Part shown: piece after piece, positions 53,822 to 64,000 of the stretch
Layout of the letters: each line of letters starts with the position of its first letter
Numbering within the stretch: position 1 is the first letter of the stretch
Virus record (IMG/VR): IMGVR_UViG_3300036398_003487
Location: 1 to 64,000 of that record
Reading direction: 5' to 3' (one strand)
Source: a virus
Length of the DNA: 64,000 nucleotides
The notes under the pieces: generated by a model
The model's input: the letters and a program-made list of their open reading frames with translations, nothing else
What the model was told of the DNA's origin: nothing
Databases searched by the model: none
Made by a program: the position numbers and the translations under genes

Positions 53822-55582
53822 TTGACAACTTCCACAGGACATTTAAGTATTGAACAACAAGCAATATCTATTCTTGAAAATTATCAGGGGTCAAATAATT
53901 ATATTCTTAAATTAAAGAAACAGATTGAGTCAAATAAGAAGTATCTCCCAACGAGGGCACAATGTGATTACGTTATTGACTTCAATTTAATAGTTCCAAA
54001 AGTTGCTAAGAAATGGGTCGAGATTGACTCATACTTTTCACAAAAACTTGTTGCTGATAATCCATTTATTAAGGAACCTGATAAAATCTATGTTGAAAAG
54101 ATTTTAATTGAGAAAGATAAATCATATCACATTTGGGGTAAAATTTTTAGTGGAGAAACTATTCACGATTTTTGGATACCAAAGGCTGCTGTCATTAAAC
54201 AATACACCGAAAACTTGGTTGATGTTGATTATACAAAATATGAAAACCGACCACCACTTGCTCACCAAAAAGAAGCAATTGAAAAGTTATTAAAAAACGA
54301 CAAGTTTATCTTGGCAGATGATATGGGACTTGGTAAAACAACAAGTACTGTTATTGCGTCGTTAGAAAGTGGGGCGAATAAAGTGTTAATTATTTGCCCG
54401 GCATCACTTAAAATAAATTGGGAAAGAGAAATCAGAAACTATACTGATAAAACAATTTACATATGTGAAGGTAAGAAGTATGAACAAGCTGATTATGTAA
54501 TTCTTAATTACGACATACTTAAAAACTTCCACGACCCAAAAGATAAATTAAACTCAATAATCCTTAATTCAAAATTTGATTTGGTTGTTATTGATGAAGC
54601 ACATTATGTTTCAAACGCTCAAGCTCAAAGAACAAAGATTATTATGGATGTAACCAAGGACATTAAAAAACTTTGGTTATTAACGGGAACACCAATGACT
54701 TCTCGTCCTATGAATTATTATAATATTTTGAAACTTATTGATAGTCCTGTAAGTCAAAATTGGCAAGCATACGCAATTAGATATTGTGGTGGATATCAGT
54801 TTAGAGTTGGCGGTAAAAAGATTTGGAATGTAACAGGGGCATCCAATTTAGAAGAGTTAAGAGAAAGAACTTCTCGTCAAATTTTAAGAAGATTAAAAAC
54901 TGAAGTTTTAGATTTACCTGAAAAAATTATGACACCTGTTTACCTCCGTTTAAAATCAAGATTATACGAAGGGTTGATGGGTGAGTATTATGATTGGTAT
55001 AACAACAGACAAGACGAATCAAAGTCATTATCTGTTCAGTTTACAAAATTGATGAAAGTAAGACAAGTTATCGCCGAAGAAAAAATACCGATTACTATTG
55101 AACTTGCTGAGAACATTATTGAGCAAGGTAAGAAAGTTATTATCTTCAGTAACTTTACTGAACCACTTAAAAAGATACACGAACATTTTGGTAAAAAATC
55201 TGTTTATTTAGACGGCTCAACATCAAAACCTGCAAGACAAGATGCCGTTGACAAGTTTCAGGAGAGTGATAAAATACAAGTTTTTTGTGGTAACATGAAA
55301 GCCGCAGGGGTTGGATTAACACTCACGGCAGGTGAAGCCGTTATTATGAATGACTTATCATTTGTTCCCGCAGAACATAGTCAGGCTGAAGACAGAGCGT
55401 ACAGATACGGACAAAAAAATTCAGTTTCAATATACTACCCACTATTTGAAAACACGATTGAAGGTGTTATCTACGACATTCTTATAAAGAAGAAACAGAT
55501 TATTGGTACGGTTATGGGTGATATAGATGAAAATTCTGTAGATATTGTTGAACAAATACTTAACGAAATCAATAGTAAGTAA
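53822..55582 (+). CDS. SNF2-type DNA translocase/helicase
   Basis: Predicted 586-residue SF2 ATPase. Residues 1-140 are an unassigned N-terminal domain. Motif I is ADDMGLGKT at 165-173, motif II is DEAH at 258-261, motif III is LTGTP near 290, and the C-terminal lobe has FCGNMKAAGVGLTLT and the motif VI QAEDRAYRYGQ. ADDMGLGKT and the QAEDRAYRYGQ form mark the SNF2 family rather than the T4 UvsW type. A role in fork remodelling or recombination is likely, by analogy to SMARCAL1-like annealing translocases. The first usable start is TTG at 53822; no ATG occurs before the motor domain. Confidence 0.85.
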   Translation: MTTSTGHLSIEQQAISILENYQGSNNYILKLKKQIESNKKYLPTRAQCDYVIDFNLIVPKVAKKWVEIDSYFSQKLVADNPFIKEPDKIYVEKILIEKDKSYHIWGKIFSGETIHDFWIPKAAVIKQYTENLVDVDYTKYENRPPLAHQKEAIEKLLKNDKFILADDMGLGKTTSTVIASLESGANKVLIICPASLKINWEREIRNYTDKTIYICEGKKYEQADYVILNYDILKNFHDPKDKLNSIILNSKFDLVVIDEAHYVSNAQAQRTKIIMDVTKDIKKLWLLTGTPMTSRPMNYYNILKLIDSPVSQNWQAYAIRYCGGYQFRVGGKKIWNVTGASNLEELRERTSRQILRRLKTEVLDLPEKIMTPVYLRLKSRLYEGLMGEYYDWYNNRQDESKSLSVQFTKLMKVRQVIAEEKIPITIELAENIIEQGKKVIIFSNFTEPLKKIHEHFGKKSVYLDGSTSKPARQDAVDKFQESDKIQVFCGNMKAAGVGLTLTAGEAVIMNDLSFVPAEHSQAEDRAYRYGQKNSVSIYYPLFENTIEGVIYDILIKKKQIIGTVMGDIDENSVDIVEQILNEINSK

Positions 55583-55595: not shown

Positions 55596-57101
55596 ATGAA
55601 ATCGTTAAATTTAGTATCAGAGTCATTAGTTAGTCGTATATTAGGTGAAGAAACTCAACCTGAAACCAAATTTTTTATTAACGAAATGAAAACCATAGGT
55701 ATTGATAAATTACCATATGGTTACGCATCATTAAGAAGATTTATTGACCCTGAAACAATGAAGTTTCATTATCAGAAACATTACAAAGGGTATGTTAAAA
55801 AATTAAATTCCGCTCTTCGTAAAAAAGATTATGGTGATGTTGAATTGGAGAATATTGTTAAACAAATTTCAAAGTATAATACAACAATAAGAAATAATGC
55901 AGGTGGAGCATTTAACCACGCATTATTTTGGAAGATGTTATCACCCACACCACAAAAACCAAGTGGTGAGGTATTTGAAAAGATTGTTAAACAATTTGGA
56001 ACATATCGCAACTTCAAAACTAAATTTGAAGAAATTTCAAGAAAAAGATTTGGTTCGGGGTGGTGTTGGTTAGTGTTAACCGATACAGGTAGATTAAAAG
56101 TAATGTCTACTTCAAATCAGGATAATCCACTTATGAATATAATAAACAAGGGTGGTTTTCCGTTGTTAGGTTTAGATTTATGGGAACACGCTTATTATTT
56201 AAAATACCAAAACAAAAGAGACGAATATATTGAAAATTTTTGGGACGCAATTAATTGGGAATTTGTTAACGAGTTATACAAATCAAAAACTGAAAAGAAA
56301 TTGAACGAGTCAACTTCACAAAAAAAACTTTTATACGAAAACGTATCTGATTATTCAGATATTTTTAGTAACAACAAAAATGTTCTTTGGACTTATAGAA
56401 GATGTATTGACAATACGTTGAAAAGAGTTTTATCTGATAAATGGAGTGAAAACAATCAATACTCTGAAGGTTCATCTTCAGGTATCTACGACTTGGAACA
56501 ACCAGGTCGTTCAGTAATTAATAAATTAAACACAAATTATATTGGGTTTAAAATTTTAGTTGATGATTTAAACGCAGTACTTACAAAACTAAATAAACCC
56601 ACATTAAATTTTATTGGGGTAACACCTTCACAACAAGTAGAAGAAATAAATAAATTTTGTTCTTATTTGGAGTTTTTTGGTGAAAGAATTTTTAAAGGGT
56701 CTAAAACTCTTGATAAGATTATGAAACTTTTAAATAGAACACATGACAAAGGTGGTCAACTTGAGGAGTATGTTGCAAAAAAAATCAATCAAGAATTTGG
56801 TGAAGGAACTGCTATTGTAGTAGGTAGTCTTGGCTCAAAAGAAGATTTTGCGGGTACTGATTTAACAGTGAATTTTGATAACAAAATACAAAATGCTCAA
56901 GTAAAACCAATTTTAAGTATGGAAGTAATTGAGGGTTTCTATCATATTAAAATCAGAGGGTTTGTTAAAAAATTTAATACCGACTTATTAATTTTTTCAA
57001 ATATTAACAAAGAAGTTTATATTTTTAAAAACAAAACGGTAGCTTTTAGTTCAAGCATGTTTAAAATTCCGGCACAAGATTTAATTTATACTCTGAATTG
57101 A
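55596..57101 (+). CDS. Mn-type superoxide dismutase fused to probable PD-(D/E)XK nuclease domain
   Basis: Predicted 501-residue two-domain protein. Residues 38-230 are a complete Fe/Mn superoxide dismutase domain: metal ligands H58, H108, D194 and H198 are all present, as are NNAGGAFNH, GSGWCWLVL and LDLWEHAYYL. Gly at 104 and Gln175 in STSNQD indicate the Mn subtype. Residues 1-37 are an extension with an ILGE site. After a linker, residues about 380-475 look like a restriction-endonuclease fold: E390/E391 on a helix, FAGTDL (D422), QVK (Q435, K437), then strands LLIFSN and VYIFKN. The SOD would remove superoxide; the nuclease role is inference. Neighbours are an SNF2 helicase and gp13. Confidence 0.85.
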   Translation: MKSLNLVSESLVSRILGEETQPETKFFINEMKTIGIDKLPYGYASLRRFIDPETMKFHYQKHYKGYVKKLNSALRKKDYGDVELENIVKQISKYNTTIRNNAGGAFNHALFWKMLSPTPQKPSGEVFEKIVKQFGTYRNFKTKFEEISRKRFGSGWCWLVLTDTGRLKVMSTSNQDNPLMNIINKGGFPLLGLDLWEHAYYLKYQNKRDEYIENFWDAINWEFVNELYKSKTEKKLNESTSQKKLLYENVSDYSDIFSNNKNVLWTYRRCIDNTLKRVLSDKWSENNQYSEGSSSGIYDLEQPGRSVINKLNTNYIGFKILVDDLNAVLTKLNKPTLNFIGVTPSQQVEEINKFCSYLEFFGERIFKGSKTLDKIMKLLNRTHDKGGQLEEYVAKKINQEFGEGTAIVVGSLGSKEDFAGTDLTVNFDNKIQNAQVKPILSMEVIEGFYHIKIRGFVKKFNTDLLIFSNINKEVYIFKNKTVAFSSSMFKIPAQDLIYTLN

Positions 57102-57124: not shown

Positions 57125-58255
57125 ATGAATACAATAATCGCAGAACCTTACAGAAGTCAACTATATACAAAAGTTAGACACGTATTAGGAGCCCCAATTC
57201 GTTCAATTGAATTAGAAGATGAACAAATGGACTCAATCTTAGAATTTGCAATTGGGGATTATTCCCAATATGTACAAGATTGGTTAATTGAATCACAATG
57301 GACTTCATTATACAATTTAAATTTAGATACTCAATCTTTATCAAGGGCATTTGTTACAAAAAGTTTAGATTACGAAAATAGATACGCTCAAGCATACTCT
57401 AAAATAGTGGGATTACAATCTAACCCACTTGGTGATTGGGAACTTAAAAAAGATTATATCACATTAGTACCCAATCAACAGATTTATGAAATACCCGCAG
57501 GTCGTGAAATTAATGAACTATTATGGTTTACACCAGCAACTCTAAATAATATTTTATTTGACCCATTCAGTTTTGGTGGTTTGGGGGGAGGACTTGGTGG
57601 TGGAACTGGTTTTGCTCAGATGGGTTATATGTCAGGAAGTTATTTTATGATGCCAGCATTTGATATGTTATTAAGAATGCAAGAAATTAATATTCAGAGA
57701 AGAATTATTGGTGGTGATTTAACTTATAGAATTACAGGATTACCTAATGGTAAAAAAGCAATTCATTTAATGCAAACACCTGGTGGTAAATTTGATTTTG
57801 GTAATTCATCATTAAGAAATCACCAAGTTTGGTATTGGTATTACGATGTTGGCCCTGAGGATAGAGATGCTTGTTTAGCTGCTAACCCTGATATTATTAA
57901 ACTTCCCTCAGATGTTCCTTTCAACTCAATTTCATGGGCAGATTTAAACGAACCGGCTCAACAATGGGTTAGAAGATATTTTGTTGCGGGATGTAAAGAA
58001 ACATTATCAAAAGTAAGAGGAAAGTATTCAGGTAATTTAAAAACACCTGACTCAGAATTAACTATGGATTATGCTACTTTAGCAACTGAGGGTAAAGATG
58101 AAAAATTAAAATTAATTGAAGAATTAATCGGAGCAGACGGAAGATTGACAAGATTACGTCCTGAAAAAATAATGGAGAGAGAAGCGTTAATTGCTGAAAA
58201 TCTAAACAAACAAATGAAGTTTAGAGCGTTCCCAAGAAATCTGTATGTAATATAA
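57125..58255 (+). CDS. Neck protein gp13-like
   Basis: Predicted 376-residue neck component (T4 gp13 is 309), which with gp14 joins head and tail. The N-terminal helices (VRHVLGAPIRSIELEDEQMD, then FAIGDYSQYVQDWLI) and the DWELKKDYITLVPNQQIYEI strand fit the gp13 pattern. The long, glycine-rich FGGLGGGLGGGTGFAQMGYM insert around residue 155 is an addition. A helical C-terminus (WVRRYFVAGCKETLSKVRGK ... ELTMDYATLATEGKDEKL) follows. Unlike in T4, this gene is on the opposite strand from the gp14- and gp15-like genes and about 3.3 kb away. Confidence 0.75.
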   Translation: MNTIIAEPYRSQLYTKVRHVLGAPIRSIELEDEQMDSILEFAIGDYSQYVQDWLIESQWTSLYNLNLDTQSLSRAFVTKSLDYENRYAQAYSKIVGLQSNPLGDWELKKDYITLVPNQQIYEIPAGREINELLWFTPATLNNILFDPFSFGGLGGGLGGGTGFAQMGYMSGSYFMMPAFDMLLRMQEINIQRRIIGGDLTYRITGLPNGKKAIHLMQTPGGKFDFGNSSLRNHQVWYWYYDVGPEDRDACLAANPDIIKLPSDVPFNSISWADLNEPAQQWVRRYFVAGCKETLSKVRGKYSGNLKTPDSELTMDYATLATEGKDEKLKLIEELIGADGRLTRLRPEKIMEREALIAENLNKQMKFRAFPRNLYVI

Positions 58256-61510: not shown

Positions 61511-64000
61511 TTAAGGTTGTTTTTGAATTTGTATTTTGTTTTCTGCGGTGAATGTTCTAGCTGAGAATGTATAAACACTTTCACCTGCATAGTCTATAGT
61601 TTGACTCACACCATTACAATCTACATAATTTAAAGTTAAAGTTGGTGGGGTTGTATGACAATATGTTGTCGCTTGGAAATTATAACAACTTGTTGATGTA
61701 TAAGTTCCTAAATCAATTAAGTCAAACCCATCAGGTGATGATGGACCTGATATCCATCTTGGTGGGTAACTCGCGTAAGATATAACTGTCATATAACCAA
61801 TATCACTAAGTGAACCTAACGTTTGACTAACATAATTACCATTTATATTCCTATATTGAACCACCATACTTGATGATGAACAGTCACTATTTTTTTCATT
61901 ACCAATCACGTACATTTTTAAAGGTTCTGCCGGTGTTGATGATGGAGTTAAACTAGTTGTAGGAGTTACCGTTGGTGTTTTGGTGACTGTTGGTGTGTTA
62001 GTTGGGGTTGATGTTATTGTTGGGGTTTGTGTAACGGTTGGTGTATTTGTTGCGGTTTGACTTGGTGTTACAGTATTAGTTGGTGTCTGAGTCACAGTTG
62101 CTGTATTAGTAGGGGTTTGGGTTACGGTAGGAGTATTTGTTGGTGTAGGTGTTGGTGTTTCAGTATTTGTTGGTGTAGGTGTTGTTGTTGGTGTTGGTGA
62201 TGCATAAATTGTTGGAGTAACCGATGGTGTTGGTGTGATAGTCGGAGTAACTGATGGTGTTGGTGTAATGGTAGGTGTCGGTGTTGGTGTTGGTCTACTT
62301 GGGTCAAAACAAGTTAATATTAAAGTTTGGTCATCCTCAATTAAATGTAAATAAAAGTTATTATAACAACAATTAGGTATTGTAGTATTGTTAACTGTAA
62401 ATGGAAATGTCTGACCTGATGTAATCAAATATCTTGGATTTGATTCTGAAACTTCATAATATAAATTAAATGTTCTATCGGCAAAAGTAGTTGAGGTAAC
62501 AGTAAGATTATTACCTGAAACTAATAAACAAATATCGTTAATCAATCCGTCTGAACAGTCAGGACATCCATAATCAAAAAGTAAAAACGGACTTTTTAAA
62601 ATGTCAAAATTATGTATTACCTCAGGATAACTCAATGGTTCCGTGTACATTCTAAATTGAGAAATTGCCCCGTCAAATGTACCACCAAATGTTGGTTCTA
62701 ATAGTATATTGGTTGTTAAACCTGATAATGAAGTTCCTGACAATGTTTGATTTGGCATAACCTCAGGGTCTTGCATGTATGTCAACCCTGTTAAGGTTGT
62801 TGGACATCCTGTAAAAGTTAAACTTTCTCTTAAACCTTGTGTCCCACCACCCCATGAAATATTAAATGGTACACCTAATTGTTTTTCTTTTTCTGTATTT
62901 AATGCTCTTGGAATAACTTCTTCAAATCCATTAATTACATAGAATAATCTTCCATTAATATAAATTTTTAAAACACCCAATCTATCTTCTCTTTCAATTA
63001 ACCATCTTTCATTTAGATTAACTATTTCTACTTGTTCAGCAGGTGTTGACCCTGTACGTGTTATTGGTGGTTCAATTAATAATACCGTATTATTAGATAA
63101 ACTATCAACATATTCTGTGTCACTAATTAATCCTAACCCTCCTCTGTAATATAAATCACAAGTATCAAAATAAGTACTTCTTTCCCACACACAATCAACT
63201 AAAATCCAATGTTCTTTTGTTGTATAATCAGAATTTAAATCTTCACAGTAATCAAAAATTTGATTTGATGAACAATATTCTGTGATAGTATAACCTGTTT
63301 GATATGTAATTCCTGTTGTTGGACAAGTACCTGTTGTAATACAACCTCCTGTAAATGTTAATACTTTAACACAAACTTTTGGATTTTTAGGGTCACCTGA
63401 CAATCTCAATGAAAACGAGTTTGACATTGAGTCGTATAGTGGGTCTTTATCACTATTTGGAACTTGTGTGGTTGCGTTACATCCACAGTTACAATCGGTA
63501 TTATGTTGAGCTTTATAAACTAAAGGTTCATATACTTCAATACATCTTGAATTGGTCACTCCTGTGTTTGAACAAGCACAAGTTTCTAAACATCCACTTA
63601 AAACACTTGTAACTCTTGTATACCCACTATCTGAAACAGGTGAACCTGACGCATGATGATAAAATTTATTTTCAGCTCTTGCTCCAAAATAGAAAAAAGT
63701 GTTTTCATTTTCAGGATATGTTAAGTTTAAAGTTGTTTGAGTATTTGTTGGATAAAATTCATCAACATACCTTGGTCTAATCAACATCTCAACAGTCCAC
63801 CCTTCGTTTGTTCTATTTGGGAATGTTTCGTAATCATACCCAAACAAACTAAAGAATCCTTGGTAAAAACCACCATATAATTGATTGTAATATGTTATAG
63901 TATAACCTGATTCTGAAACCATATTATACAGAGTTTGTTTTGTGTTTCCTGAAAATCTTTCGTTTGGAGGATTTGTATAACCTGTAACTTGAAATAATTT
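61511..64000 (-). CDS. Large adhesin with LamG domain and Pro-Thr linker (5' end beyond window)
   Basis: The frame stays open past the Met at 63922 to the window edge (26 more codons, GYTNPPNERFSG), so the true start lies to the right and at least 829 residues are present. In order there is a Cys-rich beta region (CNCGCNATTQ, CEDLNSD), a LamG-like domain (VLKIYINGRLFYVINGFEEV ... TFDGAISQFRMY), a CYNNFYLHL segment, a Pro-Thr linker of about 120 residues and a C-terminal Cys-containing module ending KIQIQKQP. The architecture matches the adhesin at 308-2014 with a different C-terminus. It is separate from the fibre cluster and next to DNA polymerase. Confidence 0.75.
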   Translation of the reverse strand, partial: KLFQVTGYTNPPNERFSGNTKQTLYNMVSESGYTITYYNQLYGGFYQGFFSLFGYDYETFPNRTNEGWTVEMLIRPRYVDEFYPTNTQTTLNLTYPENENTFFYFGARAENKFYHHASGSPVSDSGYTRVTSVLSGCLETCACSNTGVTNSRCIEVYEPLVYKAQHNTDCNCGCNATTQVPNSDKDPLYDSMSNSFSLRLSGDPKNPKVCVKVLTFTGGCITTGTCPTTGITYQTGYTITEYCSSNQIFDYCEDLNSDYTTKEHWILVDCVWERSTYFDTCDLYYRGGLGLISDTEYVDSLSNNTVLLIEPPITRTGSTPAEQVEIVNLNERWLIEREDRLGVLKIYINGRLFYVINGFEEVIPRALNTEKEKQLGVPFNISWGGGTQGLRESLTFTGCPTTLTGLTYMQDPEVMPNQTLSGTSLSGLTTNILLEPTFGGTFDGAISQFRMYTEPLSYPEVIHNFDILKSPFLLFDYGCPDCSDGLINDICLLVSGNNLTVTSTTFADRTFNLYYEVSESNPRYLITSGQTFPFTVNNTTIPNCCYNNFYLHLIEDDQTLILTCFDPSRPTPTPTPTITPTPSVTPTITPTPSVTPTIYASPTPTTTPTPTNTETPTPTPTNTPTVTQTPTNTATVTQTPTNTVTPSQTATNTPTVTQTPTITSTPTNTPTVTKTPTVTPTTSLTPSSTPAEPLKMYVIGNEKNSDCSSSSMVVQYRNINGNYVSQTLGSLSDIGYMTVISYASYPPRWISGPSSPDGFDLIDLGTYTSTSCYNFQATTYCHTTPPTLTLNYVDCNGVSQTIDYAGESVYTFSARTFTAENKIQIQKQP
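61928..62298 (-). repeat. Pro-Thr linker-coding repeat (third copy)
   Basis: GT-rich near-repeats encode TPTPT, TPTNT, TQTPT and TPSVT motifs on the minus strand, about 120 residues. It is the longest of three such linkers and contains near-identical internal blocks such as [10 protein letters not shown]. Confidence 0.85.

Follow-up and report, generated by a model that had tools for sequence, protein, structure and literature searches.

The window analyzed here is the whole stretch of 64,000 nucleotides that makes up positions 1 to 64,000 of IMG/VR virus record IMGVR_UViG_3300036398_003487, a record (hereafter the parent record, G000) of 155,988 bases. An open reading frame on the plus strand at 55596-57101 encodes a protein of 501 amino acids. 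Upstream lies an SNF2 helicase gene (53822..55582, plus strand; PF00176 and PF00271; start codon uncertain), and downstream lies a neck (head-tail adaptor-like) gene (57125..58255, plus strand; phrog_211, E 3.8e-8). These two genes are the constant left and right borders of a genomic slot. Also in the window, on the minus strand at 61511-63922, is a gene for a protein of 803 amino acids, probably structural, that contains an extended repeat rich in Thr and Pro (TPTPT...).

A structural model of the complete 501-residue protein has a mean pLDDT of 75.5, with values below 50 in residues 1-20 of the leader, in residues 234-250 of the linker, and in parts of the N-terminal half of the superoxide dismutase (SOD) domain. 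Searches of PHROGs with the protein returned nothing below E 0.12, and NCBIfam returned SOD models only, all below their cut-offs. Conservation was assessed in an alignment of 58 relatives in which each distinct sequence appears once; one relative that is cut by the end of its contig (L031) was left out.

The first enzyme module is a Mn-type SOD domain (residues 36-229; 55701..56282, plus strand). Pfam models PF02777 (E 9.4e-42) and PF00081 (E 8.8e-22) match residues 36-226 far above their cut-offs, and the best PDB chain for this part is 6gsc (E 1.7e-59). The metal ligands H58, H108, D194, and H198 (three histidines and one aspartate) are identical in all 58 distinct relatives, as are G104 and Q175, a pair that we take to be Mn-like. 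Residues H62, Y66, W156, W158, E197, and Y201 are likewise invariant (58/58). When superposed on SOD structures, this part of the model gives Z values of about 18-19 with an rmsd of about 3.5, where it should be kept in mind that the N-terminal half of the domain has low pLDDT. A reading made earlier from the sequence alone (hereafter the sequence-only reading) had proposed a Mn-type SOD domain with all four metal ligands, and the Pfam and PDB matches together with the invariant residues bear this out. Judged from the alignment, the catalytic residues of the SOD are intact.

The second module occupies the C-terminal half. It begins with a helical region (residues 250-370; 56343..56705, plus strand), which would form the first part of the mature nuclease, and continues into a PD-(D/E)XK nuclease-like domain (residues 384-501; 56745..57098, plus strand). 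Since SODs filled the fold-search list obtained with the whole protein, this half was folded and searched separately. From residue 250 onward, the separate model has a mean pLDDT of 91.5. A Foldseek search of the PDB with this model places the homing endonuclease I-Ssp6803I (2ost) first (E 2.6e-3, probability 1.00), and no match in that search reaches E 0.001. Alignments made with VIA-align give Z 8.3 for the Hjc structure 2wcw (rmsd 3.7 over 105 residues), followed by I-Ssp6803I (Z 7.3), NhoI (7.2), a chain of the SPARDA complex (7.1), and DpnI (6.1). A BFVD search with the whole-protein model yields three entries that pass E 0.001, namely A0A6J5L953 (501 amino acids), a 1113-amino-acid protein of an uncultured marine phage, and a 182-amino-acid SOD; entries named PD(D/E)XK come next (E 0.023 and 0.030). 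The 1113-residue protein (A0A8D9CCA0), which aligns with the whole-protein model at E 6e-15, is possibly a larger relative. Sequence-profile methods gave less: 30 C-terminal sequences produced only scattered weak Pfam matches, none at or above the gathering score, and a PDB profile search returned a single match at E 0.32.

Residues E390, D417, D422, Q435, and K437 are invariant in the 58 distinct relatives. The Z values are modest by themselves, but taken together with the invariant E-D-QxK set they favor a PD-(D/E)XK nuclease as the best reading of the predicted fold and sequence of residues 384-501. The sequence-only reading had expected a nuclease-like fold for residues 380-501, to be sought by structure prediction and fold search, and such matches were found, with modest scores. 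It had also named E390/E391, D422, and the QxK motif as nuclease residues. E390, D422, Q435, and K437 stand, whereas position 391 is a glutamate in just 18 of the 58 relatives, and the proposed pair therefore shrinks to E390. The conservation of residues in both modules and the C-terminal fold support its view that two enzymes are joined here. Conceivably, the fusion could instead be passive and under little selection, with the nuclease half decaying, as might be suggested by one relative whose nuclease is truncated and lacks the catalytic end (L323). We give this explanation very little credence, given that the catalytic residues are the same in 58 of 58 distinct proteins.

Relatives of the protein are common among uncultivated viruses. 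At least 595 stretches in IMG/VR code for proteins related to some portion of it, a figure that may include plain SODs, and at least 498 code for relatives of the C-terminal half. The best 80 of the former are 48-100% identical to the query and, except for L031, match over nearly its full length; an SOD motif is present upstream in 76 of 78 further loci recovered with the C-terminal half. Because each locus survey in this study is limited to the 80 best loci per query, these fractions are not population frequencies. Among deposited phages, an SOD match is found in 29 of 50,697 records, several of which are tiny, unannotated, or labeled as bacteria, and none of these matches covers 80% of the query. 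For the C-terminal half, deposited phages yielded no credible match (nothing better than E 8), and a database of genome contigs (genome_contigs) contained no relative. The sequence-only reading called SODs rare in phages, which is correct for deposited records and incorrect for IMG/VR. One protein that is 95% identical and likewise 501 amino acids long (A0A6J5L953) has already been deposited as "superoxide dismutase [uncultured Caudovirales phage]."

Identity to the phage domain is 44-57% among the best 80 bacterial SOD loci (45-57% for most of them), of which 67 belong to Bacteroidota by record title. The nearest deposited relatives of the capsid protein include those from Flavobacterium phages (41.6%). 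A host among the Bacteroidota is likely, as inferred from these two lines of sequence evidence. By eye, many of the closest bacterial SODs (L338-L417) have export-like N-termini (RRxFI or lipoprotein-like). When the longest ATG-initiated frames were considered, 50 of 68 bacterial SODs carry at least 15 residues before an LPY-like start; the motif search is at fault for at least two of these 50, and it detected no LPY-like motif in 12 of the 80 loci. The phage SOD may therefore stem from an exported form.

The regions outside the two folded modules are variable, with the exception of three glutamates. The first, E30 (codon 55683-55685), ends the leader (residues 1-30; 55596..55685, plus strand), which we propose to be a capsid-targeting propeptide, in the sequence FFINE/M (here and below, a slash follows the glutamate of interest). 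The other two reside in the linker (residues 231-249; 56286..56342, plus strand) as KLNE238/S (codon 56307-56309) and LLYE248/N (codon 56337-56339), and both are proposed head-protease sites. Position 30 is glutamate in 58 of 58 relatives, always with I or L two residues earlier. Position 238 is glutamate in 55/58, with a hydrophobic residue two positions before it in 54/58, and for position 248 both values are 57/58.

Sites of this form are found in head proteins of the same virus. The parent record carries a T4-type head cluster with genes for a portal, a gp21-type protease (phrog_207, E 1.7e-43; G000 98918-99637 in parent-record coordinates), and a capsid protein. The propeptide of the capsid protein ends in LINE/A, with LINE present in 72 of 72 sequences and A in 71 of 72 (alignment without L088 and L126). 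A leader that ends in hydrophobic-x-Glu, as in all 58 relatives at E30, thus resembles the capsid protein's own site. Further conserved hydrophobic-x-E sites occur in the protease itself (FLQE/S, n=44), in the scaffold (PMTE/S and NLIE/S among others, n=59), and in a core protein (NLTE/S, n=31); FLQE/S, PMTE/S, and NLTE/S are among those with variable flanks.

Three observations count against a simple equation of these sites with cleavage. Because the folded, conserved parts of the protease and the scaffold contain conserved hydrophobic-x-E sites as well, the motif alone is unspecific; [LI]xE is in any case a short motif; and the residue after E30 is usually Met, versus the Ser or Ala that is common in head proteins. 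Under one threshold applied to eight proteins, the SOD-nuclease has two variable-flank sites, versus two in total among seven controls (3,609 residues), one in each of two proteins. E30 does not enter this comparison because its downstream flank is the conserved start of the SOD.

The Met after E30 raises another explanation, which is that the E30-M31 pair is conserved as an internal translation start that yields free SOD. Position 31 is Met in 52 of 58 relatives, and the T4 protease gene itself is described as having an internal start in passages of PMC9026906. Yet the other six relatives have Ala or Ile at this position, while the Glu before it stays in all 58. The approximately 12 bases upstream of the two codons are rich in T and contain no purine-rich stretch resembling a ribosome-binding site (the pattern used for this upstream search required a Glu codon and is uninformative on Glu conservation itself). 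An internal start would also leave E238 and E248 unexplained. Since the Glu is kept when the Met changes and the upstream bases are T-rich, we judge it very unlikely that an internal start is the cause of E30.

The arrangement of modules in the slot was examined in the best 80 loci found via the downstream neck gene. This nuclease occurs without SOD at 33 loci, both modules at 28, SOD without this nuclease at 18, and neither at one, where the third class takes in L271 and the metalloprotease-SOD types described below and the second takes in the truncated L323. In a tree built from 54 distinct near-complete neck proteins (L271 scored as nuclease-positive), at least four changes are required for the SOD label and at least four for the nuclease label. 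At seven loci, an in-frame loss has removed the SOD body but left the nuclease, the leader, and the sites at E30 and E248 in place. An assembly artefact is unlikely, given that relatives are found on many contigs and that the seven contigs with the in-frame loss carry different metagenome numbers.

The putative cut sites follow the modules through these exchanges. The E30 site is kept in 12 of 12 distinct proteins that have SOD without this nuclease. Nuclease-only proteins carry a short leader that ends in [LIVM]xE in 16 of 19 distinct cases; the three that lack it (L248, L279, and L301) count against a role as head cargo. In L271, the SOD is followed by a different, divergent QVK nuclease (profile match with an hhalign probability of 72.6, E 3.2e-5). 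In ten distinct metalloprotease-SOD proteins, the SOD is preceded by a domain containing HEWVH or HEWIH, seven of the ten add a further C-terminal domain, and glutamates at the successive boundaries are present in 10/10, 10/10, 7/7, and 7/7 sequences. Proteins of about 700 amino acids that combine metalloprotease-like, SOD, and C-terminal domains were seen at L305:3882-5978, L318:617-2713, L321, L328, L329, L331, and L332. A standalone protein of 127 amino acids in the parent record (G000 132199-132582; HEWVHEF) appears by eye to be a homologue of the metalloprotease-like domain and has no Pfam or PHROG match. At L278:3529-5987, two other genes, both starting with MGKFIIxESEK, replace SOD and nuclease, and neither has a Pfam match above the cut-off.

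Two ideas about the function of the fusion can be evaluated with these data. The sequence-only reading had linked the protein to its SNF2 neighbor, such that the SOD-nuclease and the translocase would constitute a stress-linked or restriction-type system directed against host DNA. The genes are adjacent on one strand and separated by 13 bases. However, each of the 80 surveyed loci has an SNF2 match whichever module occupies the slot, including the one with neither, and so the neighbor is not specifically linked to the SOD-nuclease. The proposed connection is not supported, and we regard such a system as highly improbable. The notion of a single bifunctional enzyme is, from these sequence comparisons, probably wrong as well, because the domains are separated by two conserved putative cut sites and are found apart in relatives.

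The explanation that we consider probable, on sequence grounds, is that the open reading frame encodes a capsid-targeted precursor that is cut by the head protease into a virion-borne SOD and a virion-borne nuclease. The steps that we infer, from cleavage, packaging, and injection to the physiological roles of both enzymes, would be as follows. The N-terminal ∼30 residues would act as a capsid-targeting propeptide and bring the protein to the core of the prohead. As the head matures, cuts by the phage's T4-type protease after E30, E238, and E248 would release a Mn-type SOD of ∼208 residues and a QxK-type PD-(D/E)XK nuclease of ∼253 residues inside the head. Both would then enter the host together with the DNA. 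We expect that the SOD would scavenge superoxide, either close to the entering DNA or within the freshly infected cell, and that the nuclease would cleave, early on, DNA of the host or of competitors. The earlier suggestion of a virion enzyme gains indirect support from the head-protease-like sites, which that reading had not mentioned.

The main rival to a cargo precursor is an auxiliary metabolic gene whose uncut product acts in the infected cell, with the SOD guarding the host from reactive oxygen, the nuclease serving phage DNA metabolism, and the glutamates being incidental. A protective role against reactive oxygen in infected hosts has been proposed for SODs of freshwater phages (in passages of PMC6802176), other phage SODs are plain single-domain genes amid non-head genes, and some of the nuclease matches are junction-resolving enzymes that could fit a role in DNA metabolism. 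This explanation does not account for an invariant E30 within an otherwise variable leader, nor for boundary sites that persist through module changes. We rate it as rather unlikely, albeit deserving of serious consideration.

If the SOD-nuclease is a cargo precursor, it is perhaps accompanied by a second one in the same genome. At G000 134879-136645 (L085:10879-12645, minus strand), a gene encodes PPK2 fused to a phage lysozyme (E 2.7e-70 and 6.1e-19), with the leader MRNLLTE and with NINE/Q between the modules. The motif N[IV]NE/Q is kept in ten distinct relatives of 553-603 amino acids, query included. Eight of the ten match the query through the end of the lysozyme. The matches of L429 and L430 stop at residues 419 and 424, respectively, and the C-terminal parts of these two therefore differ. 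Shorter relatives (355-374 amino acids) end near the same point.

Comparable leaders may be more widespread. Among 1,074 open reading frames of the IMG/VR loci, 53 (4.9%) have [LIVMF]xE[SN] starting at residue 5, compared with 0.46% of positions beyond residue 40; only rows sharing the first 12 residues were removed for this count, and a small paralogous family (MKYxITES) adds to the peak. Between G000 92373 and 155732, many unrelated small proteins have common leaders, for example MKKIVRLTESDLVKIVKRVIxE and MKYLITESQL. It is possible, from their sequences, that these shared short leaders are targeting peptides. We tentatively put forward a general cargo system in which abundant T4-like phages, probably of Bacteroidota, might build multi-enzyme precursors behind capsid-targeting leaders. 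The head protease would separate them in the prohead, and each particle would deliver a swappable toolkit of redox, energy, protease, and nuclease functions. Precursors of this kind would include SOD-nuclease, metalloprotease-SOD-other domain, PPK2-lysozyme, and more.

Some of this is already known, in that the protein has been deposited under an SOD name and SODs in freshwater phages have been reported (passages of PMC6802176). The words "fusion," "capsid," "virion," and "nuclease" are absent from the main text of that source. For the SOD-nuclease architecture or precursor, SOD as head cargo, the head-protease-like sites, and the module swapping, we found no prior description among the open-licence PMC article texts searched. 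If the cargo interpretation is true, virions of a common group of uncultivated phages deliver SOD and nuclease at the moment of infection, and the "ROS-defence genes" of phages would be particle-borne shields or weapons, not ordinary auxiliary metabolic genes. It would also provide a sequence rule for finding virion cargo in metagenomes, namely to look for hydrophobic-x-Glu where modules meet and to compare it with the capsid propeptide encoded by the same genome. Finally, it would be a natural example of several enzymes loaded into one phage head.

The closest known parallel is found in phage T4. Passages of PMC9026906 describe propeptides of 10-19 residues that target T4 internal proteins to the head and are removed by gp21, processing determinants at residues 8 and 10 of IPIII, and foreign proteins that are packaged and delivered when fused to the T4 targeting sequence. 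Ip2 and Ip3, which T4 injects, act as inhibitors of host restriction enzymes (PMC12373910), and delivered head proteins can therefore act at the start of infection. Like IPI-IPIII and Alt of T4, the SOD-nuclease occurs in a phage with a gp21-type protease and has a candidate N-terminal propeptide ending in hydrophobic-x-Glu, the same motif found on the capsid protein. In contrast to those proteins, it has two enzyme modules with further putative sites between them, its leader is longer (∼30 residues versus 10-19), and it is known here from sequence.

The modules themselves also have known counterparts. The phage SOD has the same catalytic residues as the bacterial Mn/Fe SODs of Bacteroidota; it differs in its E30 leader and C-terminal nuclease, whereas many of the bacterial enzymes have export-like N-termini. 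The nuclease-like domain has a core fold similar to those of I-Ssp6803I, Hjc resolvases, NhoI, and DpnI and carries an E-D-QxK set. I-Ssp6803I also uses QxK. Identity to these PD-(D/E)XK nucleases is about 10-18%, and unlike them the phage protein has an extra helical N-terminal region. Vibrio phage 2.275.O and PA5oct-like Pseudomonas phages resemble our virus in being large phages with SOD-family genes. However, their SODs are 21.9-29.5% identical, are encoded by 182 and 189 codons, carry no nuclease, and reside among other neighbors.
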